Shown here in pieces: positions 48,123 through 63,362 of a DNA stretch of 64,000 nt. Position numbers and translations under genes: made by a program. The notes beneath the pieces were generated by a model that made no database searches, was not told where the DNA came from, and saw nothing but the letters and a program-made list of their open reading frames with translations. The stretch's first letter is position 1; each line of letters starts with the position of its first letter. The stretch comes from Anaeromyxobacter sp. Fw109-5 (GTDB lineage: Bacteria > Myxococcota > Myxococcia > Myxococcales > Anaeromyxobacteraceae), in NCBI RefSeq assembly GCF_000017505.1, contig NC_009675.1, positions 4,158,501 to 4,222,500 of the forward strand. Direction: 5' to 3'.

Positions 48123-48223
48123 ATTAGGCCCCGAATGGCCACCGATCCAAGCACTTTCGGCGATCGCAATTTCTGCGTTAACGAGCAGTGAGCAGGACCC
48201 ACCTGCACCGGAGGATTCACCCG

Positions 48224-48742
48224 ATGCGCCACTTCGTCAGCCTTTGCGGCGCGCTCGCCCTCGCCGCCGCGCTCGTGCCTCCTCCGGCCGGCGCCGCCGC
48301 GGACGCACGAGAGGGCGAGGCGCTGTACGTCGGCGCGAGGCCCCTGCAGAACGGCGGGGCCCCGTGCCTCGGCTGCCACGGGCTCGCGGGCCACGGCCTC
48401 GCCTGGAGCGCCAGCTTCGGCCCCGACCTCTCGGCCGCCGCGCAGACCTACGACGCGGACACGCTCGCGACCGTGCTCGAGGACGTCCCCTTCCCGAGCA
48501 TGGAGCCCATCTACCGCGGCCACGCCATCACCGCCGGCGAGCGGGCCGACCTGGCCGCGTTCCTCCTGGAGTCGCACGCGGCGCCTCCGGCGCAGTCGGC
48601 GACGCTCGGGCGGCTCCTGCTCGAGGCCGGCCTCGGCGTCGCGGCGATCCTCGCCCTCCTCGTCCTCTCGTTCCGCCGCCGCATGCCGCCCGTCTCCGCC
48701 GCGCTCGCGCGCGCGCGCCGGTCGGCGGGAGGTGCCCGATGA
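48224..48742 (+). CDS. Membrane-anchored c-type cytochrome of the nitrate reductase operon
   Basis: A 172-aa protein with signal peptide (~1-25), one heme site C48-x2-C51-H52 (CLGCH), a probable axial Met in 'PFPSMEP' and a C-terminal membrane helix (~133-152). ATG 48224 follows GGAGG with 9-nt spacing, better than a GTG at 48188. It overlaps narG (ATGA). A dedicated cytochrome c beside narGHJI is unusual in E. coli-type systems and may connect to quinol oxidation or to another donor. Confidence 0.88.
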   Translation: MRHFVSLCGALALAAALVPPPAGAAADAREGEALYVGARPLQNGGAPCLGCHGLAGHGLAWSASFGPDLSAAAQTYDADTLATVLEDVPFPSMEPIYRGHAITAGERADLAAFLLESHAAPPAQSATLGRLLLEAGLGVAAILALLVLSFRRRMPPVSAALARARRSAGGAR

Positions 48743-51700
48743 GCTTCCTGCGCGACGTCCTCGATCCCGCCTCGCGGCGCTGGGAGCGCCTCTGGCGCGA
48801 CCGGCACCAGCACGACCGCAGCGTGCGCTCCACCCACGGCGTGAACTGCACGGGGAGCTGCTCCTGGAACGTCCACGTGAAGGAGGGCATCGTCGCCTGG
48901 GAGACGCAGGCGACCGACTACCCCGCGCTGGAGGGCGTGCCGCCCTACGAGCCGCGCGGCTGCCAGCGCGGCGCCTGCTACTCGACGTACCTCTACTCTC
49001 CGCTCCGCGTGAAGACGCCGTACGTGCGCGGCGCGCTCCTCGACGCGTGGCGCGCCGCGCGGGCCGCGGAGCGGGACCCGGTGCTGGCCTGGGGCGCGCT
49101 CATGGGCGATCCCGCCCGCCGCGCCGCGCTCCAGGCCGCCCGCGGCAAGGGCGGGTTCCGCCGCGCCACGTGGCAGGAGGCGCTCGACATCGTCGCGGCG
49201 TCCATCGTCCACACCGTGAAGCGCTGGGGGCCCGACCGCGTGACCGGCTTCTCGCCCATCCCGGCGATGTCGATGCTCTCGTTCGCGGGCGGCTCGCGCT
49301 TCCTCCAGCTCCTCGGCGGGGTGAACCTCTCCTTCTACGACTGGTACTGCGATCTGCCGAACGCCTCGCCGGAGGTGTTCGGCGAGCAGACCGACGTGGC
49401 GGAGAGCGCGGACTGGTTCAACAGCCGCTACGTGCTGGTGCTGGGCTCGAACCTCGCCGTGACGCGCACGCCCGACGCGCACTTCCTCGCCGAGGCGCGC
49501 CACGACGGCGCGAAGGTCGTCGTCCTCTCCCCCGACTTCAACCCCACCTGCCGCCAGTCGGACTGGTGGATCCCCGCCCACGCGGGGCAGGACGGCGCGC
49601 TGCTCTGCGCGGTGAACCACGTCCTCCTCTCCGAGGTCCACGCGCAGCGGGAGGTGCCCGCCTTCCGGGAGTTCCTGACCCGCTACACCGACGCGCCGTT
49701 CCTCGTCGCGCTCGACGTGAAGGACGGGGTCGCCGCGCCCGGGCGGATGCTGCGCGCGGGCGCGCTCGAGCGCTACCGCGGCGAGGAGCACGGCGACTTC
49801 AAGTTCCTCGTCTGGGATCGCGCCGCCGACGCGCCGCGCATGCCGCAGGGGAGCCTCGGCTTCCGCTGGCAGGCGAGGAAGGGGCAGTGGAACCTGAAGC
49901 TCGAGGACGGGCTGGACGGCGCGCCGATCGACCCGGCCCTCTCCTTCCTCGAGCGGCACGACGCGGTCGTCCAGCTCGAGGTCGCCGACTTCGGCTCGGA
50001 CCGGGTGTGGCGCCGCGGGGTGCCGGTGCGGTTCGTCGAGACCGACGCGGGCCGCGTGGCCGTCGCGACCGTGCAGGACCTCCTCTTCGCCCAGCACGGC
50101 GTCGGCCGCGGCCTCGCGGGCGAGTACCCGGCGAGCTACGACGATCCCGCCGCGCCGTTCACGCCCGCCTGGCAGGAGCAGTACACCGGCGTGGACCGCG
50201 CCCAGGTCGTCCGGCTCGCGCGGGAGTGGGCCGACACCGCGGAGCGCACCGGCGGGCGCTGCTCCGTCATCATCGGCGCCGGCGTGAACCACTGGTACCA
50301 CGCCGACCTCGCCTACCGCGCCGCCCTCACCACCCTCATGCTGTGCGGCTGCGTCGGCAAGAACGGCGCGGGGCTCAACCACTACGTGGGCCAGGAGAAG
50401 CTCGCCCCGGTGGCGCCGTGGGCCAGCCTGGCGGGCGCGCTCGACTGGGCGAAGCCGCCGCGCTTCCAGAACGCGCCGTCGTTCCACTACGTCCACTCCG
50501 ACCAGTGGCGCTACGAGCGCGCCGAGCGCGAGGGCCGCCTCGACCCCGCCTCGCGCGGCGATCGCGCGCACGCGATGGACCACCAGATCCGGGCGGTGCG
50601 CAGGGGCTGGCTGCCCTTCTACCCGCAGTTCGACCGGAGCTCCCTCGAGGTCGCCCGCGAGGCGGCCGAGGCGGGCGCCTCCGAGCCGAAGGCCATGGTC
50701 GCGCACGTCGCGCGCGCGCTGGAGCAGCGGCGGCTGCGGCTCGCGGTGGAGGACCCGGACGCGCCCGAGGCCTGGCCGCGAGTGCTCATCGCGTGGCGGG
50801 GCAACGCGCTCTCCTCGAGCGCGAAGGGGCACGAGTACTTCCTGCGCCACTACCTCGGCGTGAAGGATCTCTCCATCGCCGGCGAGTCGCCGCAGGGCGC
50901 GCTGGACGCGGTGCAGCGGCCGGCGCCGGAGGGCAAGCTCGACCTCGTCGTGGCGCTCGACTTCCGCATGACCACCACCGGGCTCCTCGCCGACGTGGTC
51001 CTCCCGGCCGCGACCTCCTACGAGAAGGACGACCTCTCCTCCACCGACCTCCACTCCTTCGTCCACCCCATGCAGGCCGCCGTCCCCCCCTGCTGGGAGG
51101 CGAAGAGCGACTTCGACGCCTTCGCCGCGCTCGCCGACGCGGTGACCGCGCTCGCGAAGGTCCACCTCCCCTCCCCGCTGCTCGACGTGGTGGCGACGGC
51201 GATCGCGCACGACACGCCGGGCGAGATGGGCGATCCGCAGGCGCCCGACTGGGCCGACGGCGCTGCGCCGCTCGTGCCCGGGAAGAACGCCCCCAACCTG
51301 TCGGTGGTCGCGCGGGACTACGCGCACCTGGCGGATCGCTTCCGCGCCCTCGGGCCGCTCGTCCGCGAGCAGGGCGTCGCCGCGCACGGCCTCTCCGTCC
51401 CGGTCGCGGACCTGTACGACGAGCTCCTGCGCGAGCGTCCCACCGTCTCCTTCGGCGGCCGGACCTATCCGTCGGTCGCGACCGCGCGCGACGCGGCGAA
51501 CGTCGTGCTGCACCTCGCGCCGGAGACGAACGGCGAGGTGGCCTGGCGCGCGTTCCACGAGGAGGAGAAGAAGGTCGGCGTCCCCCTCGCGGACCTCGCC
51601 GAGGGGACGCGCGGGGTGCGCACCACGTTCGAGGACCTCGCCGCCCAGCCGCGCCGCGTGCTCACCACCCCGTTCTGGACCGGGATCGTGAACGACGGCC

Positions 51701-52344
51701 GGCCGTACACCGCCTACGCGCTGAACGTGGAGCGGCTCGTCCCGTGGCGCACGCTCACCGGCCGCGCGCACCTCTACCTCGATCACCCCGGCTTCCTCGC
51801 CGCGGGGGAGGGGCTCCCCACCTACAAGCCCAAGCTCGACCCCGCCCTGCTGCAGGACCTCGACGCGACGCAGGCGGAGGGACCGGTGCTGAAGGTGAAC
51901 TTCATCACCCCGCACGGCAAGTGGAGCATCCACTCGACCTACGGCGACACGGTCCGGATGCTCACCCTCTCGCGCGGCCTCCACCCGCTCTGGCTGAACG
52001 ACCGCGACGCCGCCGAGACCGGCATCCGCGACGGCGACTGGGTGGAGGTGGTGAACGACCACGGCGCGGTGGTCACGAAGGCGGTGGTGAGCGCCCGCGT
52101 GCCGCGCGGCATCGCCATGCAGTACCACGCGCCGGAGCGCACCGTGGGGACCCCGCGGACGCCCTCGCGCGGCGGGCGCCGCGCCGGCGTGCACAACTCG
52201 CTCATGCGCATCCGGCTGAAGCCGACGCTCATGCTCGGCGCCTACGGCCAGATCTCGTACGGCTTCAACTACTGGGGTCCCACCGGGACGAACCGCGACG
52301 CGTACGCGCTCGTGCGCAGGCTCGAGCGCGCGCCGGAGTACTAG
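48739..52344 (+). CDS. narG: Respiratory nitrate reductase alpha subunit
   Basis: A 1201-aa Mo-bisMGD catalytic subunit of the membrane-bound, cytoplasm-facing NarGHI. The FS0 [4Fe-4S] ligands H33, C37, C41 and C75 are present ('HGVNCTGSC', 'GCQRG'), and the Mo ligand Asp is D205 in 'YCDLP'. 'GEQTDVAESADWFNSRYVLVLGSNLAVTRTPDAHF' and 'LMLCGCVGKNGAGLNHYVGQEK' match NarG. Length is close to the E. coli protein (1247). It overlaps the cytochrome gene by 4 nt, and narH follows after 9 bp. Confidence 0.97.
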   Translation: MSFLRDVLDPASRRWERLWRDRHQHDRSVRSTHGVNCTGSCSWNVHVKEGIVAWETQATDYPALEGVPPYEPRGCQRGACYSTYLYSPLRVKTPYVRGALLDAWRAARAAERDPVLAWGALMGDPARRAALQAARGKGGFRRATWQEALDIVAASIVHTVKRWGPDRVTGFSPIPAMSMLSFAGGSRFLQLLGGVNLSFYDWYCDLPNASPEVFGEQTDVAESADWFNSRYVLVLGSNLAVTRTPDAHFLAEARHDGAKVVVLSPDFNPTCRQSDWWIPAHAGQDGALLCAVNHVLLSEVHAQREVPAFREFLTRYTDAPFLVALDVKDGVAAPGRMLRAGALERYRGEEHGDFKFLVWDRAADAPRMPQGSLGFRWQARKGQWNLKLEDGLDGAPIDPALSFLERHDAVVQLEVADFGSDRVWRRGVPVRFVETDAGRVAVATVQDLLFAQHGVGRGLAGEYPASYDDPAAPFTPAWQEQYTGVDRAQVVRLAREWADTAERTGGRCSVIIGAGVNHWYHADLAYRAALTTLMLCGCVGKNGAGLNHYVGQEKLAPVAPWASLAGALDWAKPPRFQNAPSFHYVHSDQWRYERAEREGRLDPASRGDRAHAMDHQIRAVRRGWLPFYPQFDRSSLEVAREAAEAGASEPKAMVAHVARALEQRRLRLAVEDPDAPEAWPRVLIAWRGNALSSSAKGHEYFLRHYLGVKDLSIAGESPQGALDAVQRPAPEGKLDLVVALDFRMTTTGLLADVVLPAATSYEKDDLSSTDLHSFVHPMQAAVPPCWEAKSDFDAFAALADAVTALAKVHLPSPLLDVVATAIAHDTPGEMGDPQAPDWADGAAPLVPGKNAPNLSVVARDYAHLADRFRALGPLVREQGVAAHGLSVPVADLYDELLRERPTVSFGGRTYPSVATARDAANVVLHLAPETNGEVAWRAFHEEEKKVGVPLADLAEGTRGVRTTFEDLAAQPRRVLTTPFWTGIVNDGRPYTAYALNVERLVPWRTLTGRAHLYLDHPGFLAAGEGLPTYKPKLDPALLQDLDATQAEGPVLKVNFITPHGKWSIHSTYGDTVRMLTLSRGLHPLWLNDRDAAETGIRDGDWVEVVNDHGAVVTKAVVSARVPRGIAMQYHAPERTVGTPRTPSRGGRRAGVHNSLMRIRLKPTLMLGAYGQISYGFNYWGPTGTNRDAYALVRRLERAPEY

Positions 52345-52353
52345 GAGACCACC

Positions 52354-53811
52354 ATGAACCTGGAAGTGCGCGCGCAGCTCGCCTCGGTGTTCCACCTCGA
52401 CAAGTGCATCGGCTGTCACACCTGCTCGGTGGTCTGCAAGAACCTGTGGACCGACCGGCGCGGCTCCGAGCACATGTGGTGGAACAACGTCGAGACGCGG
52501 CCGGGGACCGGCTACCCCGCGCTGTGGGAGGACCAGGAGCGCCACCACGGCGGCTTCGTGGTCGAGGACGGGGAGCTCCGGCTCCGGCTCGGCGGGCGCG
52601 GGAGCATCCTCGAGCGCCTGTTCCAGGCGCCGCGGCTCCCCACGCTCGACGATCAGTACGAGCCCTGGACCTACCGCTACGAGGACCTGTTCCGGGCGAA
52701 GCCCTCGGACGAGCTCCCCACGGCGCGGCCGGTGTCGGCGATCACCGGCCGGCCCGTCGACCCGAGCGCGGGGCCGAACTGGGACGACGACCTGGCCGGC
52801 TCCGACGTCCACGCCGCGGCCGACCCGAACCTCGCCGCGCTCGCGCCGTCGGAGCGCGAGGCGCTGCGCGCGCTCGAGGGGCTGGTGTTCTTCCACCTGC
52901 CGCGCACCTGCAACCACTGCCTCAACCCGGCCTGCGCGGCGGCCTGCCCCTCCGGCGCGATCTACAAGCGCGGCGAGGACGGGGTGGTGCTCATCGACCG
53001 CGAGGCCTGCCGCGGCTGGCGGATGTGCGTGCCGGCGTGCCCCTACAAGAAGACCTTCCACTCGTGGTCGGAGGGGAAGTCGGAGAAGTGCATCGGCTGC
53101 TACCCGCGCATCGAGAGCGGCGAGCCGCCGGCCTGCTTCCAGGCCTGCGTCGGGAGGATCCGCTATCAGGGCGTCCTGCTCTACGACCCGCACGCCGCCC
53201 TGCGGGCCGCGCGCGCCCCGGACGCCGAGCTCGTCGCCGAGCAGCGCGCCGCGTTCCTCGACCCGGCCGACCCCGAGGTGATCGCGGCGGCGCGCCGGAG
53301 CGGCATCCCGGACGCCATGCTCGACGCCGCGCTCCGCTCCCCGGTCGATCGGTTCGTGCGGCAGTGGCAGGTGGCGCTGCCGCTCCACCCGGAGTTCCGC
53401 ACGCTCCCGATGGTGTTCTACGTGCCGCCGCTCTCGCCGGTGCGCGCGGGCGCGACCGCGTCCACCGGAGCGGCCCTCGCCGGCGCCGGCGAGCAGCGCA
53501 TCCCGGTGCGCTACCTCGCGGCGATGTTCGCGGCGGGCAACGAGGAGGTCGTCACCTCCGCGCTCCGCCGGCTCGTGGCGGTCCGCACCCGGCGCCGCGC
53601 CGCGACCGTGGGCGACGTGACCGAGGCGGACGTGGCCGAGGCGCTCCGCGAGGCCGGGCTCACGCCCGAGGTGGCCGACGCCATCCACCGGCTCACGGTG
53701 TTCCCGACCCTCCGCGAGCGCGTGGTGCGGCCGCCGGGCGGACGCGAGACCGAGACCGAGCAGCTCGTCGGGCTCCAGGGCCTCGCCGGCGTGCGCGCGA
53801 GGGTGCCGTGA
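52354..53811 (+). CDS. narH: Respiratory nitrate reductase beta subunit
   Basis: A 485-aa four-cluster ferredoxin-type subunit. The first cluster Cys are C18, C21, C24 and C28. Further groups are 'CNHCLNPACAAACPSG', 'CRGWRMCVPACPYKK' (Trp replaces a Cys, giving the 3Fe-4S cluster) and 'CIGCYPRIESGEPPACFQACVGR'. It passes electrons from the heme subunit to NarG. It is preceded by AGGAG and overlaps narJ (GTGA). Confidence 0.97.
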   Translation: MNLEVRAQLASVFHLDKCIGCHTCSVVCKNLWTDRRGSEHMWWNNVETRPGTGYPALWEDQERHHGGFVVEDGELRLRLGGRGSILERLFQAPRLPTLDDQYEPWTYRYEDLFRAKPSDELPTARPVSAITGRPVDPSAGPNWDDDLAGSDVHAAADPNLAALAPSEREALRALEGLVFFHLPRTCNHCLNPACAAACPSGAIYKRGEDGVVLIDREACRGWRMCVPACPYKKTFHSWSEGKSEKCIGCYPRIESGEPPACFQACVGRIRYQGVLLYDPHAALRAARAPDAELVAEQRAAFLDPADPEVIAAARRSGIPDAMLDAALRSPVDRFVRQWQVALPLHPEFRTLPMVFYVPPLSPVRAGATASTGAALAGAGEQRIPVRYLAAMFAAGNEEVVTSALRRLVAVRTRRRAATVGDVTEADVAEALREAGLTPEVADAIHRLTVFPTLRERVVRPPGGRETETEQLVGLQGLAGVRARVP

Positions 53812-54362
53812 GTCCTGCGATCGGGCCCGTGCTCCAGCGCGAGGCGCTGCTCGCGTTCGCCGAGCTCCTCTCCTATCCCGACGACGCGCTCCCCGGCCGC
53901 CTGCGCGCCCAGGCCGCTCGGCTCCCGAGCGCGACCGGCGGCGCGCTCGACGCCCTCGCCGACCGGCTCGCCCTCCTCGGCGCGGGCGGCGCCGAGGAGC
54001 TCTACACCGCGACCTTCGATCTCCGCCCGGCGGTGAGCCCCTACGCCGGCATGCACCTCTGCGGCGAGGGCCCGCGGCGGAACGCGCTGCTCGCGCACCT
54101 CGCCGCCCTCCGCGCCCAGGCCGGCCTCCCGCCGGCGGACGAGGTCCCCGACCACTTCGCCGAGCTCCTGCGCTACCTCGCCGCCGCGCCCGCGGACGAG
54201 GAGTCGGAGGACGTCGCCGCGCTCGTGCTCGCCCCGGCCGCGCGCCTCGCCGCCGCCGCGCTGCCGCACGACAACCCGTACCGCGCCGCGCTCGAGGCGC
54301 TCGCGCGCGCGCTCCCCGCGCGGGCCGAGCTGCCCGTGCGGACGAAGGAGGCCGGACCATGA
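53808..54362 (+). CDS. narJ: Nitrate reductase assembly chaperone
   Basis: A 184-aa TorD/NarJ-type chaperone needed for Mo cofactor insertion and Fe-S assembly in NarG. 'FAELLSYPDDALPGRLRAQAARLPSA', 'YTATFDLRPAVSPYAGMHLCGEG' and 'PDEVPDHFAELLRYLA'-like segments are diagnostic. It starts at GTG 53808 overlapping narH and ends overlapping the narI-narK fusion (ATGA). Confidence 0.92.
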   Translation: MSPAIGPVLQREALLAFAELLSYPDDALPGRLRAQAARLPSATGGALDALADRLALLGAGGAEELYTATFDLRPAVSPYAGMHLCGEGPRRNALLAHLAALRAQAGLPPADEVPDHFAELLRYLAAAPADEESEDVAALVLAPAARLAAAALPHDNPYRAALEALARALPARAELPVRTKEAGP

Positions 54363-56458
54363 CGGACCTCGTCCTGTTCGCCGTCGTCCCCTACGTCGCC
54401 GTCGCGCTCGCCGCGGCCGGGCTCGTCCTGCGGCACGCCGGCGCCGGGGCCCCCATCACCGCCCGCTCGTCACAGGTACTCGAGGCGCGGCTGCTCCACT
54501 TCGGGGCGATCCCCTGGCACCTCGCGATCCTGGCCATCCTGGGCGCGCACGTGTTCGCGGCGGTCGCCCCCGGCGTGATGGGGCGCGTCCTCGGTGACCC
54601 GCTGCGGCTGCACGTCATGGAGGTCACCGGCCTCGCGCTGGCCGGCTGGGCGCTCGTCGCCGGCGGGATCCTCCTGTGGCGCCGGCTCGCGGTGCCGCGC
54701 GTGCGCGCCGTCACGACGGTGATGGACGTGGTGGTGCTCGCGCTGCTCGTCGCGCAGGTGGGGCTCGGCGTGTACGTGACGCTCTCGCTGCGCTGGGGGT
54801 CCGTCTGGTACCTGCACACGGCCGTCCCCTGGCTGCGCTCCCTCGCGAGCTTCTCCCCGGAGCCGCAGTACGCCTCCGTGCTCCCGCTCGCGGTGAAGGC
54901 CCACGTCGTGCTCGCCTTCGTGCTCGTCGCGCTGATCCCGTTCTCGCGGCTCGCGCACGTGGTCTCGTTCCCGCTGCGGTTCGCCGGCGGCGTCCGGGGC
55001 CGGACGGTCTGGTCGAGCGCGCCGGCCGGCGTGACCCTGCCCAGGCCTGCCGGCGCCGTGCTGCGCTCGCGGGCGCTCGAGCCGCAGGTGCTCTCGGTGT
55101 GGGATCCCGAGAACGCGGAGGCCTGGGCGAGGAGCGGCGAGGCGACCGCGCGCCGCAACCTGTGGATCTCGATCTTCGCGCTCTTCCTCGCCTTCTGCGT
55201 GTGGATGGTCTGGAGCGTGGTGGTGGTGCGGCTGCCGGACGTGGGCTTCCGGCTCGACACGGGCCAGCTCTTCTGGCTCGCCGCGCTGCCAGGCCTGTCC
55301 GGCGCGACGCTGCGGATCTTCTACTCCTTCGCGGTCCAGATCTTCGGCGGCCGGCTGTGGACGACCGTCACCACCGCCTCGCTGCTCGTCCCGGCGATCG
55401 GGATCGGGATCGCGGTGCAGGATCCGACCACGCCCTACCCGGTGCTGCTCGGCCTCGCGCTCCTCGCGGGCCTCGGCGGCGCGAACTTCGCGTCCAGCAT
55501 GGCCAACATCGGCTTCTTCTTCCCCGGCGCGAGGAAGGGGACCGCCCTCGGCCTGAACGGCGGCCTCGGCAACCTCGGCGTGTCGGGCATGCAGCTCGTC
55601 GTCCCGCTCGCCATCACCGCCGGCGTCTTCGGCGCCTGGGGCGGCGCGCCCCAGGTCGTGGTGAAGGGCGGGGTGGAGCAGAACCTCTGGCTGCAGAACG
55701 CCGGGTTCGTGTGGGTGCCCTTCATCGTGGTCGCCGCCGCCCTCGCCTGGCTCGGCATGGACGACGTGGCGAGCGCGCGGGCCTCCTTCCGCGAGCAGGC
55801 GCGCATCTTCCGGAGGCGCCACACCTGGCTCGTCTCCGCCCTCTACCTCGGGACCTTCGGCTCGTTCATCGGCTTCTCCGCCGCCCTTCCCCTGCTGGTG
55901 AAGGGTTCGTTCCCCGGCGTGGACCCGGTGCGCTACGCGTTCCTGGGTCCGCTCGTCGGCGCGCTCTTCCGCCCCGTCGGCGGCTGGCTCGCCGACCGCG
56001 TCGGCGGCGCGCGCGTGACGCTCTGGAACTTCGTGGCGATGGCCGGGCTCGCCCTCCTCGCGCTGGCGTTCCTGCCGCAGGGCGGCGAGCCCGGGCGGTT
56101 CGCCCCGTTCCTCGGGACGTTCGTGCTGCTCTTCGCCGCCACCGGGATCGGGAACGGCTCCACGTACCGGATGATCCCCGCCATCTTCGGGACGATCCAC
56201 CGGGCGCCCGCGGGCGCGGGTCCCGCCGCCACGGCCGCCGCGAAGCGGTCGGCCGCGACCGAGGCGGCCGCGGTGGCCGGGTTCGCCTCCGCCGTCGCCG
56301 CCTACGGCGCCTTCTTCGTGCCGAAGGCCTTCGGCACCTCGCTCGCGGTGACCGGCGGCCCGGCGGCGGCGATCGTGGGCTTCGTCGCGTACTACGCGCT
56401 CGCCATCGCGGTCACGGCGTGGGCGTACGCGCGGAAGGGATCGGGGTTCTCCTGCTGA
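54359..56458 (+). CDS. narI-narK: Fused nitrate reductase gamma subunit (NarI) and nitrate/nitrite transporter (NarK)
   Basis: A 699-aa polytopic protein. Residues ~1-205 are NarI: five membrane helices with the four heme-ligand histidines H54, H64, H182 and H200 at E. coli spacing (10 and 18 apart). A linker of ~30-60 residues runs through 'LSVWDPENAEAWARSGEATARRN'. Residues ~260-695 are a full NarK-type MFS transporter: 'GGANFASSMANIGFFFPGARKGT', 'GLNGGLGNLGVSGMQLVVPL' (nitrate signature) and 'FRPVGGWLADRVGG'. No stop lies between the halves. NarI's cytoplasmic C-terminus suits NarK's cytoplasmic N-terminus. Overlap with narJ is ATGA. Confidence 0.95.
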   Translation: MTDLVLFAVVPYVAVALAAAGLVLRHAGAGAPITARSSQVLEARLLHFGAIPWHLAILAILGAHVFAAVAPGVMGRVLGDPLRLHVMEVTGLALAGWALVAGGILLWRRLAVPRVRAVTTVMDVVVLALLVAQVGLGVYVTLSLRWGSVWYLHTAVPWLRSLASFSPEPQYASVLPLAVKAHVVLAFVLVALIPFSRLAHVVSFPLRFAGGVRGRTVWSSAPAGVTLPRPAGAVLRSRALEPQVLSVWDPENAEAWARSGEATARRNLWISIFALFLAFCVWMVWSVVVVRLPDVGFRLDTGQLFWLAALPGLSGATLRIFYSFAVQIFGGRLWTTVTTASLLVPAIGIGIAVQDPTTPYPVLLGLALLAGLGGANFASSMANIGFFFPGARKGTALGLNGGLGNLGVSGMQLVVPLAITAGVFGAWGGAPQVVVKGGVEQNLWLQNAGFVWVPFIVVAAALAWLGMDDVASARASFREQARIFRRRHTWLVSALYLGTFGSFIGFSAALPLLVKGSFPGVDPVRYAFLGPLVGALFRPVGGWLADRVGGARVTLWNFVAMAGLALLALAFLPQGGEPGRFAPFLGTFVLLFAATGIGNGSTYRMIPAIFGTIHRAPAGAGPAATAAAKRSAATEAAAVAGFASAVAAYGAFFVPKAFGTSLAVTGGPAAAIVGFVAYYALAIAVTAWAYARKGSGFSC

Positions 56459-58001: not shown

Positions 58002-58379
58002 TCAACCCGCGAGCGCCCGCGCCGCCACGATGCCGGCGAAGCCGGCGGCGAGGCAGCCGAGCACCGTGAGGGCCACGTTCACGGCCGCGGGCCAGACGCC
58101 GCGCTCCAGCAGCGCGAGGGTCTCGTAGTTGAACGAGGAGTAGGTGGTGAAGCCGCCCAGCACTCCGGCCCCGAGGAAGAGCCTCGCCTCGGGGGTGATG
58201 GCCTCGCGGGTCCCGGCGAGGCCGAGGAGCAGGGCGAGCAGGAAGGAGCCGAGCACGTTCACGATGAGAGTGCCGCGCGGGAAGTCCGCCCCGAGCGCGC
58301 GCGCCGCCCAGGTCGAGACGAGGTAGCGCGCGCCGCTGCCGAGCGCGCCGCCCGCGCAGACGAGGAGGAGCCGGATCAC
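58002..58379 (-). CDS. crcB: Fluoride exporter (Fluc/CrcB)
   Basis: A 125-aa four-helix protein forming a dimeric fluoride channel. '[15 protein letters not shown]', '[18 protein letters not shown]' (the conserved Asn) and '[21 protein letters not shown]' (the Phe-box region) are typical. The GTG at 58379 begins the conserved region; an upstream start would add 12 polar residues. No fluoride riboswitch is recognisable upstream. Confidence 0.93.
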
Positions 58380-58492
58380 CGCCGCCGGTCTATCGCGGCT
58401 GGGGTGCGACCGCAATCCCGTCCCCGTGCTACCGTCGCGCGCGCCACCCCTCTCGCGCGGCTCCGCCGCGTCCCCGGCACCGGAGGTGCTCC

Positions 58493-60037: not shown

Positions 60038-60142
60038 ATGTCCTCCGCGCCCCTCTCCCCTCTTCCCCGGCGCCGCCGCGCCGACACCCGGGCGACCTCC
60101 CTCGCCCTCGCGCCGGTGGGCCTCGAGCGGGGGAGCCCGTGA
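60038..60142 (+). CDS. Small ORF translationally coupled to cysG
   Basis: A 34-codon frame (ATG 60038, GAGGAG just upstream) rich in Ser, Pro and Arg, whose stop overlaps the cysG GTG (GTGA). It may be a coupling ORF rather than a functional peptide. No homologue recognised. Confidence 0.35.
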   Translation: MSSAPLSPLPRRRRADTRATSLALAPVGLERGSP

Positions 60143-61506
60143 CCGCGCCGCTCGTCCCGCTCTTCGTGAAGCTGGCCGGCCGCCGCGTGGTCGTGGTGGG
60201 CGGCGGCGCGATGGCCGCGGTGCGCGTGCGCCAGCTGGCCGAGGCGGAGGCGCGCGTCGCCGTCGTGGCGCCGGAGGTGCGCGACGACGTCGCGGCGCTC
60301 GCGGTCGAGGTCCACCGGCGCCCGTTCCGGGACGGCGACCTCGACGGCGCCTGGTTCGTGGTCGCGGCGGCGACGCAGGCGGTGAACCGGGACGTGGCCT
60401 CCGCCGCGGAGGCCCGGCGGATCCTGGTCAACGCGGTGGACGATCCGGACAGCGCGACGGCTTACACGGCCGGCGTGGTCCGGCGCGGCGACGCGACCGT
60501 CGCGATCTCCACCGGCGGCCGCGCGCCGGCGCTCGCGGGCCTCCTGCGCGAGGCGCTCGACGCGCTCCTCCCGCGCGACGTCGCCTCCTGGGTGGACACC
60601 GCCGAGGCCGAGCGGGACGGCTGGAAGCGCGCCCGCGTGCCCCTCGCGACGCGCCGCCCGCTCCTGCTCGAGAAGCTGAACGCCCTCTACGCGCGGGCGC
60701 CGTCGCCGGGAACCGCCGGGCCGCTGCCGCCGGGCTTCGTGTCGCTCGTGGGGGCGGGCCCCGGCGATCCGGGGCTGCTCACCCGCCGCGCGGCGGAGCG
60801 GCTCGCCCAGGCGGACGTGGTCCTCTACGACGCGCTCGTGGACGGGGACGTGCTGCGCCTCGCGCCGCAGGCCCACTGCTTCCACGTCGGGAAGCGCGCC
60901 GGGCGTCCCAGCGTCTCGCAGCGCGCCATCGAGCGGCTCCTCGTCGGCGCCGCCCGGCAGGGCAAGCGCGTCGTCCGGCTGAAGTGCGGCGACCCGTTCG
61001 TCTTCGGGCGCGGCGGCGAGGAGGCGCAGGCGCTCGCCGCGGCCGGGGTCCCGTTCGAGGTCGTGCCGGGGGTCTCCTCCGCCATCTCCGCGCCCGCGCT
61101 CGCCGGCATCCCGGTGACCCACCGCGGGCTCGCCGCCGGCTTCTCGGTGATCGCCGGCCACGACGAGGCCAGCTACGGCCCCGTCCTGGATCGGCTCGGC
61201 GCGGGGACGACCCTCACCCTCGTCGTCCTCATGGGAGTCGGGGAGCGGGCCCGGATCGCGGCGCGGCTCCTCGCTCGCGGGTGGGATCGCGAGACGCCCG
61301 CGGCGATCGTGCTCGGCGCCTCGACGCCCGCCGCCTTCGCCTGGAGCGGCACGCTCGCGGAGCTCCGCGACGCCGCGCTGCCGCCGGAGCGCGCGAGCCT
61401 CCCCGGCACGCTCGTCATCGGCGCCGTGGCCGCCCTGCAGCTCACCTCCCGGCACGCCCGCGGGCGTGCCGGCGCCCCGCTCGCGGCGCGCACCGAGATC
61501 GCCTGA
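60139..61506 (+). CDS. cysG: Siroheme synthase (fused dehydrogenase/ferrochelatase and uroporphyrinogen methyltransferase)
   Basis: A 455-aa bifunctional protein. Residues ~1-200 are the Met8/precorrin-2 dehydrogenase part ('VVVVGGGAMAAVRVRQL', 'NAVDDPDSATAYTAGVVRRGDATVAISTGGRAPALA'). Residues ~212-450 are SUMT ('VSLVGAGPGDPGLLTRRAAERLAQADVVLYDALV', 'RLKCGDPFVFGRGGEEA', 'PGVSSAISAPALAGIPVTHRG'). It makes siroheme for the reductase encoded next. GTG 60139 follows GGGAG. The leader contains a shared promoter motif and a Cys-containing ORF. Confidence 0.95.
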   Translation: MTAPLVPLFVKLAGRRVVVVGGGAMAAVRVRQLAEAEARVAVVAPEVRDDVAALAVEVHRRPFRDGDLDGAWFVVAAATQAVNRDVASAAEARRILVNAVDDPDSATAYTAGVVRRGDATVAISTGGRAPALAGLLREALDALLPRDVASWVDTAEAERDGWKRARVPLATRRPLLLEKLNALYARAPSPGTAGPLPPGFVSLVGAGPGDPGLLTRRAAERLAQADVVLYDALVDGDVLRLAPQAHCFHVGKRAGRPSVSQRAIERLLVGAARQGKRVVRLKCGDPFVFGRGGEEAQALAAAGVPFEVVPGVSSAISAPALAGIPVTHRGLAAGFSVIAGHDEASYGPVLDRLGAGTTLTLVVLMGVGERARIAARLLARGWDRETPAAIVLGASTPAAFAWSGTLAELRDAALPPERASLPGTLVIGAVAALQLTSRHARGRAGAPLAARTEIA

Positions 61507-61517
61507 AAGGACCCGCC

Positions 61518-63362
61518 ATGACCGCCCCGACCGACCCCAGCCGGGCCGCGCCCCCCCGCGCCACCTTCGCGGACGAGCGCGAGATCGACGCCTTCGTGGA
61601 GACGCTGGGCCGCTTCGAGCGCCGGGAGATCGACGCCGAGGCGTGGCGCGCCTACCGCGTGGTCCGCGGCGCCTACTCGCAGCGCCAGGACGGGTGTCAC
61701 ATGCTGCGCATCAAGCTGCCGCAGGGAGCGACCGGCGCCGCCCAGCTCCGGGCGCTGGCCGACGTCGCCGGCCGCTTCTCTCGCCGGTACGGCCACGTCA
61801 CGACGCGGCAGAACTTCCAGCTCCACTTCGTGCGCCCCTCCGACCTGGAGCCGGCGCTCCGCCGCCTCGCCGAGGCCGGCATCACGACGTCGGGCGCCGG
61901 CGGCAACGCGGTCCGCAACGTGGTGGCCTGCCCGCTCGCCGGCGTCTCGCCCGACGAGGCGTTCGACGTGACCCCCTACGCCGAGGCGGTGACGCGCCAC
62001 TTCCTGCGCCACCCGCTCGCGAACGCCCTGCCGCGCAAGTTCAAGATCGCCTTCGAGGGCTGCGCGCGCGACCACGTCGCCACCGCCATCCACGACCTCG
62101 GCTTCCGCGCGCGGCTGCGCTCGGCCGGCGGCAGGACGGTGCGCGGGTTCGCGGTGACGGTGGCGGGCGGCACCGCCTCGCTCTGCACGTCCGGCACGCC
62201 GCTCGCCGAGTTCCTCCCCGCCGCCGACCTCCTCGCCCTCGCCGAGGCGGTGATCCGCGTGTTCCACGCCCGCGGCGACCGCGTGAACAAGCAGCGCAAC
62301 CGGCTCAAGTTCCTCGTGCGCGAGCTCGGCTTCGACGCGTTCCGGGCGCTCGTCGAGGAGCAGCTCGCGAAGGTGCTCGCGGAGGGCCCTCCGCGCCTCC
62401 CGTTCGATCCGGACGCGGCGCCGGTGGAGGTGCCCCCCGCGCCGCAAGGGCGCCCCGAGCCCCCCACCGTGGCGGAGATCGTCGCGCGCCTCGCGGCCGC
62501 CCCTCCGCGCGGGCCGGGCGAGCCTCCCGCGGTCGTCCCCGTCCGCCATCCGCCGCCCGAGGCGCTCGCCGCCTTCGTCGCGACGAACGTCCGCGCCCAG
62601 CGCCAGGCGGGGTTCTCGGCCGTGACCGTGTCGCTCCCGCAGGGCGACGTCACCGCCGTGCAGCTCGAGCTCCTCGCCGAGCTCTCGCTCGCTCACGGGG
62701 ACGGCGCGGTGCGCTTCGCGAGCGACGGGCACGTCGTGCTGCGCTGGGTGCCCGCCGGCGAGGTGCCGGCGCTGTTCGAGCGGCTCGCCGCGGCGGGGCT
62801 GGGGCGCGACGGGGCGGGCAGCGCCGCCGACGTCGTCGCCTGCCCGGGCGCGGACGTGTGCCGGCTCGCCGTCACGCGCACCCGCGGCCTCGCGCGCCTC
62901 GTGGACGAGCGGGTGCGCGAGCGGCTCGGCGCGGCCGCGCTGGGCGCGGCGCTGCCGGTGCACGTGTCGGGCTGCCCGAACGGCTGCAGCCAGCACCACC
63001 TCGGCGCCATCGGCCTCCAGGGGAGCGCGCGCAAACTCGGCGGGCGGGCCGTGCCCCAGTACTTCGTGCTCGTGGGCGGCGGGGCCGGTGAGGGTGGCGC
63101 CGCGTTCGGGAAGCTCGCCGGCAAGGTGCCCGCGCGGCGGATCCCGGAGGCGGTGGAGCGCCTCGCCGCGCTGTACCTCGCCGAGCGGCGCGAGGGCGAG
63201 GCCGCCGGCCCGTTCTTCGCGCGCGCGCTCGAGCGCGTGAAGGCCGCGCTCCATCCGCTCGAGCAGCTGCGGCTCGAGGACGCCTCGCCGGAGGACTTCG
63301 TGGAGCCCGGCGCGAGCGAGGACTTCAGCCCGGAGACCCAGGCCGGCGAGTGCGCGGCGTGA
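61518..63362 (+). CDS. Siroheme-dependent sulfite/nitrite reductase
   Basis: A 614-aa reductase with two ferredoxin-like halves. The siroheme/[4Fe-4S] site is C442-x5-C448 and C486-x3-C490. The substrate-binding N-terminal half has 'HMLRIKLPQG' and 'GHVTTRQNFQLHFV'. It performs a six-electron reduction of sulfite to sulfide or nitrite to ammonia. The shared promoter with thrC and the Cys leader favour assimilatory sulfite reduction; the nar operon 5 kb away leaves assimilatory nitrite reduction possible. A short C-terminal tail ends in 'GECAA'. Confidence 0.9.
   Translation: MTAPTDPSRAAPPRATFADEREIDAFVETLGRFERREIDAEAWRAYRVVRGAYSQRQDGCHMLRIKLPQGATGAAQLRALADVAGRFSRRYGHVTTRQNFQLHFVRPSDLEPALRRLAEAGITTSGAGGNAVRNVVACPLAGVSPDEAFDVTPYAEAVTRHFLRHPLANALPRKFKIAFEGCARDHVATAIHDLGFRARLRSAGGRTVRGFAVTVAGGTASLCTSGTPLAEFLPAADLLALAEAVIRVFHARGDRVNKQRNRLKFLVRELGFDAFRALVEEQLAKVLAEGPPRLPFDPDAAPVEVPPAPQGRPEPPTVAEIVARLAAAPPRGPGEPPAVVPVRHPPPEALAAFVATNVRAQRQAGFSAVTVSLPQGDVTAVQLELLAELSLAHGDGAVRFASDGHVVLRWVPAGEVPALFERLAAAGLGRDGAGSAADVVACPGADVCRLAVTRTRGLARLVDERVRERLGAAALGAALPVHVSGCPNGCSQHHLGAIGLQGSARKLGGRAVPQYFVLVGGGAGEGGAAFGKLAGKVPARRIPEAVERLAALYLAERREGEAAGPFFARALERVKAALHPLEQLRLEDASPEDFVEPGASEDFSPETQAGECAA

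Follow-up and report, generated by a model that had tools for sequence, protein, structure and literature searches.

The narIK fusion gene and its operon

The window analysed here, a 64,000-nucleotide stretch of the Anaeromyxobacter sp. Fw109-5 genome, contains a compact cytC-narG-narH-narJ-narIK operon, the last gene of which is an uninterrupted reading frame of 699 codons (699 residues) that joins NarI in frame to a NarK2-type transporter (Table 1). The stop codon of narJ and the start of the fusion gene overlap (ATGA). The preliminary description had presented NarI and NarK as one stop-free frame, and our analysis bore this out, with both domains present at full length. We assign NarG to the cytoplasmic type because its N-terminus, on inspection, carries no Tat-type leader.

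The first gene of the operon encodes a cytochrome, and counterparts of this gene precede narG in most operons examined from Geobacteraceae, Nitrospirota and Anaeromyxobacter. This arrangement suggests a putative electron-transfer partner of NarGHI, for which NarC of Thermus is a comparable case. Downstream of the operon, a CysG-like siroheme synthase gene is followed by one for a NirA/CysI-type nitrite or sulfite reductase; through this pair, nitrite or sulfite could be processed in the cytoplasm.

Table 1. Features of the nar locus, in window positions.
Feature	Position	Strand	Description
cytC	48188..48742	+	Small c-type cytochrome with CxxCH; weak PF13442
narG	48739..52344	+	Molybdenum-containing catalytic subunit (1201 aa); TIGR01580 match of 1370 bits, above cut-off
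narH	52354..53811	+	Beta subunit, four [Fe-S] clusters; PF14711 and Fer4 domains
narJ	53808..54362	+	Nar assembly chaperone; PF02613, E 1e-13; TIGR00684, E 2e-13, under cut-off
narIK fusion gene	54359..56458	+	Complete reading frame
NarI domain	54359..54985	+	Residues 1-209; 5-TM di-heme cytochrome b; PF02665; phmmer to 1q16_C
Heme ligand codon H54	54518-54520	+	
Heme ligand codon H64	54548-54550	+	
Heme ligand codon H182	54902-54904	+	
Heme ligand codon H200	54956-54958	+	
Linker	54986..55084	+	Residues 210-242; predicted flexible, one short helix (231-238)
NarK domain and stop	55085..56458	+	Residues 243-699; 12-TM MFS nitrate/nitrite transporter, NarK2 type
CrcB-type gene	58002-58415	-	Fluoride efflux protein
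Siroheme synthase and NirA/CysI-type genes	60139-63362		CysG-like synthase, then nitrite or sulfite reductase

Domain assignment and conserved residues

The Pfam model Nitrate_red_gam (PF02665) matched residues 5-209 of the fusion protein (E 4e-49; 167.6 bits against a cut-off of 22.9), and the narI model TIGR00351 fell about 1 bit short of its cut-off (104.3 versus 105.55 bits). In a phmmer search (E 7e-20), residues 4-208 aligned with nearly the full length of E. coli NarI (1q16_C); mapped residue by residue, H54, H64, H182 and H200 of the fusion stand opposite the E. coli heme ligands H56, H66, H187 and H205. The four histidines had been described as keeping the E. coli spacing; this holds for the two close pairs, but the middle interval is three residues shorter (10/118/18 in the fusion versus 10/121/18 in E. 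coli).

For the transporter half, the NCBIfam NarK model TIGR00886 matched residues 266-651 with 316.7 bits, above its curated cut-off of 311.7, and a NarU/NarK subfamily model aligned to residues 243-693 (E 2e-139), under its own cut-off. Residues 243-692 aligned with residues 13-459 of E. coli NarK (phmmer). The substrate site of E. coli NarK comprises F49, R89, F147, N175, Y263, F267 and R305 (PMC4432589), and all seven residues are identical in the fusion (F279, R319, F377, N405, Y496, F500 and R538), in line with the earlier remark that the NarK part keeps its nitrate signature and its Arg-containing motifs. Since the heme ligands and the complete nitrate site have both been retained, neither half is a remnant. 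The protein holds a single MFS domain, with NarI as its N-terminal half, and so differs from the two-MFS-domain NarK1-NarK2 type.

Predicted structure and topology

An AlphaFold2 model of the fusion, built from a 29-row alignment, reached a mean pLDDT of 77.5 and a pTM of 0.67; the structural alignment (A3) reads through the stop codons of unfused relatives, solely for the purpose of aligning. The modelled NarK half showed the 12-TM MFS fold (Foldseek TM-score of 0.94 to 4u4v, at 49% identity). The NarI half was modelled with moderate confidence (pLDDT 52-86) and did not appear among the PDB matches listed. Between the two halves, residues 205-242 had a pLDDT below 50 and formed a single short helix at residues 231-238, so that in the model the joint looks like a flexible cytoplasmic tether. 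Its sidedness is taken from family knowledge and not from the model: the C-terminus of NarI and the N-terminus of MFS transporters such as NarK both lie on the inside, and a cytoplasmic-to-cytoplasmic joint fits both, in line with the compatible topology previously suggested.

The junction as coding sequence

A sequencing error at the junction had been named beforehand as a finding that would overturn the fusion. Such an artefact, in which a sequencing or assembly fault masks a stop codon or a frameshift, was rejected and is extremely improbable: the same fusion occurs in five independently assembled genomes, and the Fw109-5 genome is itself one complete contig of 5,277,990 bases. We also tested the junction as coding sequence, because a stop-free run of about 35 codons means little at 75% GC. 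In three close contrasts across residues 209-248, 29 of the 41 nucleotide differences lay at third codon positions, against an expected share of one third (p 1.1e-6), and this third-position pattern runs across the junction. The codon changes comprised 25 synonymous and 9 non-synonymous ones, the linker dN/dS was below 1 in every pair compared, and a motif common to all five fused proteins (LPRPxxAxLRxRALEPQVL) extends from the linker into residue 245. These comparisons indicate that the junction is evolving as translated coding sequence under protein-level constraint.

A translated junction might still yield two ordinary proteins, with their equal synthesis enforced, if the linker were cleaved or if NarK were started internally. 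Support for such a separation comes from the predicted lack of structure in residues 205-242, where a membrane protease could cut, and from a GTG codon at residue 243/244 that is kept in all five fused species. However, the narK start codon and Shine-Dalgarno sequence of the unfused relatives are absent from the fused genes, and no in-frame ATG occurs in the linker of any of the five. Pairing with the anti-Shine-Dalgarno sequence ranged from -7.2 to -12.5 kcal/mol at true starts and from -7.2 to -10.8 kcal/mol at the narK ATG of unfused relatives, with a background of -2.1 (sd 2.4) kcal/mol. The in-frame GTG codons of the linker were mostly near background, the best of them (-6.5 kcal/mol) in one species only, and the conserved GTG gave -2.2 kcal/mol in each species, as compared with roughly -7 to -12.5 kcal/mol at true starts. 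It is an ordinary valine codon in a window of 75% GC. An internal narK start was therefore rejected, the pairing energies revealing no good conserved site, and separate initiation of NarK inside the fusion gene is unlikely from its sequence. With the linker also conserved at the protein level, we consider production of two separate proteins by either route improbable.

Distribution and origin of the fusion

A NarI-NarK pair is present in eight Anaeromyxobacter genomes, five with the fusion and three without. The fused proteins, with no stop between the halves, are those of Fw109-5, A. terrae SG22, A. soli SG29 and two further genomes (G003 and G004), and share 71-89% identity. In the unfused, A. 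dehalogenans-like genomes (G001, G002 and G006; about 61% identity), narI is followed by TGA, one codon and the ATG of narK, all in the same frame. This gap lies at L009 2190-2205 and at the same site in L007 and L008 (G001 and G006); stop-codon readthrough in these species would, hypothetically, likewise yield a NarI-NarK fusion. In two sister-genus genomes narI and narK overlap at ATGA in different frames, and in another, G009 (locus L012), NarI is 53% identical to the fusion and the search found no adjoining NarK. Geobacter, Geomonas, Geomesophilobacter and a Nitrospirota MAG have narGHJI and then narK with stops between, mostly with the cytochrome gene first.

A search across Myxococcota, proposed earlier as a check, recovered the fusion in the five Anaeromyxobacter species but did not show it spread across the phylum, since no fusion was found outside the Anaeromyxobacter clade in 195 Myxococcota genomes. 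Nor was one found outside Anaeromyxobacter in a mixed sample of 384 genomes of relatives, other phyla included, or among the best 80 loci from a scan of 84,980 named GTDB species for fused reading frames. No plasmid fusion was present among the matches listed; three further plasmid records had one place covering at least 80% of the query. As far as this screening reached, with distant phyla thinly covered, the fusion appears confined to one clade within Anaeromyxobacter. A search of open-access full text, with subscription papers outside its scope, found no description of a NarI-NarK fusion. The parts are ordinary, and what is new is the arrangement of two well-known proteins.

In maximum-likelihood trees the five fused proteins form one clade, both for the NarK halves (support 99/98) and for the NarI halves (100/100), and a single fusion event therefore suffices. 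The trees indicate that the fusion arose once, in an Anaeromyxobacter ancestor, where adjacent narI and narK, the last two genes of a cytC-narGHJI-K operon already in place, would have lost the intervening stop codon, start codon and ribosome-binding site. Fusion is not a requirement, because the A. dehalogenans-like species carry this operon with narI and narK unfused.

The fusion could be neutral, with the protein translated whole, the deletion of stop and start between two co-translated membrane genes harmless and useless, the domains acting as they do in the relatives and the tether functionless. Only a stop and a start had to be lost from genes that adjoin, unfused, in the same operon of the relatives, the linker is predicted to be disordered, and the variable linker of Paracoccus NarK1-NarK2 was concluded to serve as a tether only (PMC5217062). 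However, the open frame has been retained in five species despite divergence to 71% identity, ALEPQVL, the distal motif of the linker, does not vary, and a start has been regained in none of the five, so that we regard neutrality as a serious but, on balance, doubtful explanation.

A predicted transporter-reductase unit

Nitrate respiration is already known in Anaeromyxobacter. In Fw109-5, the fusion contains the sole NarI in the genome and the sole NarK above cut-off, and narG of this operon is the sole NarG above cut-off; with no further NarI, NarK or cytoplasmic NarG, nitrate respiration must use the fusion polypeptide, so long as this is not cut. At other sites the genome encodes two cytochrome c nitrite reductases of the NrfA type, so that nitrite exported by NarK would have a user in the periplasm.

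A second Nar system is present in two of the fused species (L121, at G003:C1:1505000-1519000, and L017 in G004); each system has a narG of its own, above cut-off, and a NarI that is not fused (about 40% identical). In G003 it is a cytC-narGHJI cluster without an adjoining narK. No second NarK above cut-off was found in either genome, and the second reductase may share the fused transporter; these species are a natural control.

We favour the reading, with a probability of about 0.72, that the gene encodes one 17-TM membrane protein, NarI-linker-NarK, in which nitrate/nitrite exchange is tethered 1:1 to NarGHI and feeds nitrite to periplasmic NrfA. From what is known of the families, NarI would pass quinol electrons through NarH to NarG on the cytoplasmic side, and the NarK2-type domain would exchange periplasmic nitrate for the nitrite made by NarG, an antiport mode predicted from its NarK2-type similarity (to E. 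coli NarK and plasmid-borne narK2). Being fused, and if uncut, the two would be held at a fixed stoichiometry and co-localised within the length of the flexible tether, so that nitrate would be delivered beside the reductase complex, and toxic nitrite cleared to the periplasm, where the NrfA enzymes could use it.

The benefit of this proximity may be slight, because both nitrate and nitrite are small ions with rapid diffusion. The further proposal of a covalent transporter-enzyme unit, in which the sole NarK-type route for nitrate entry and nitrite exit is built into the sole cytoplasmic nitrate reductase and local nitrate delivery to NarG and immediate hand-off of nitrite to NrfA give a measurable edge over unfused relatives in kinetics or nitrite toxicity, is tentative, and we think it rather unlikely.

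Direct channelling does not follow from the fusion, given a flexible tether and the rapid diffusion of both ions. A true metabolon, with the linker helix docking NarK on NarGHI and nitrate channelled towards the NarG active site, would agree with the conserved linker motif and with the occurrence of both NarGH and NarK2 in the P. aeruginosa denitrification complex (PMC5658584). Against it, the linker is flexible, NarI and NarK were not confidently co-folded at the pTM obtained, and P. aeruginosa NarI was not found interacting with NorCB (PMC5658584), which leaves docking and channelling a distinctly improbable account. The favoured reading of a tethered 17-TM protein bears on whether nitrate transporters physically cooperate with nitrate reductase; for Paracoccus NarK, protein-protein interaction with reductases has been suggested as one way in which the mode of transport might be controlled (PMC5217062). 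The natural fusion and the unfused pairs of the same genus offer a ready comparison of growth, nitrite leakage and complex formation, and for structural studies the fusion itself supplies NarI and NarK as a covalently joined pair.

Comparison with known systems

E. coli NarI (1q16_C) resembles the fusion in its four aligned heme ligands, its 5-TM domain and its position after narGHJ, but it stops about 12 residues past the aligned region, where the fusion continues for 490 residues. Similarly, the nitrate/nitrite antiporter NarK of E. coli (4u4t/4u4v) shares the fold and all substrate-site residues described above, yet it is free-standing, whereas in the fusion NarK makes up the C-terminal part of a protein that begins with NarI. 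In E. coli, narK is encoded upstream of narGHJI. The cytC-narGHJI-narK operons of Geobacter, Geomonas, the Nitrospirota MAG and the A. dehalogenans-like species have the same gene order and close homologues, but at least one stop separates narI from narK.

The denitrification complex of P. aeruginosa is a counterpart in that it brings NarGH and NarK2 into one membrane assembly; that association is non-covalent and runs via NorCB, with NarI not seen there, whereas the link in Anaeromyxobacter is covalent (PMC5658584). Paracoccus denitrificans NarK, a NarK1-NarK2 fusion (Goddard et al.; PMC5217062), is also a fusion in which a respiratory nitrate/nitrite transporter takes part, and it too serves the respiratory nitrate reductase. 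The Paracoccus fusion, however, joins two transporters to each other, whereas that of Anaeromyxobacter joins a transporter to an integral subunit of the enzyme.
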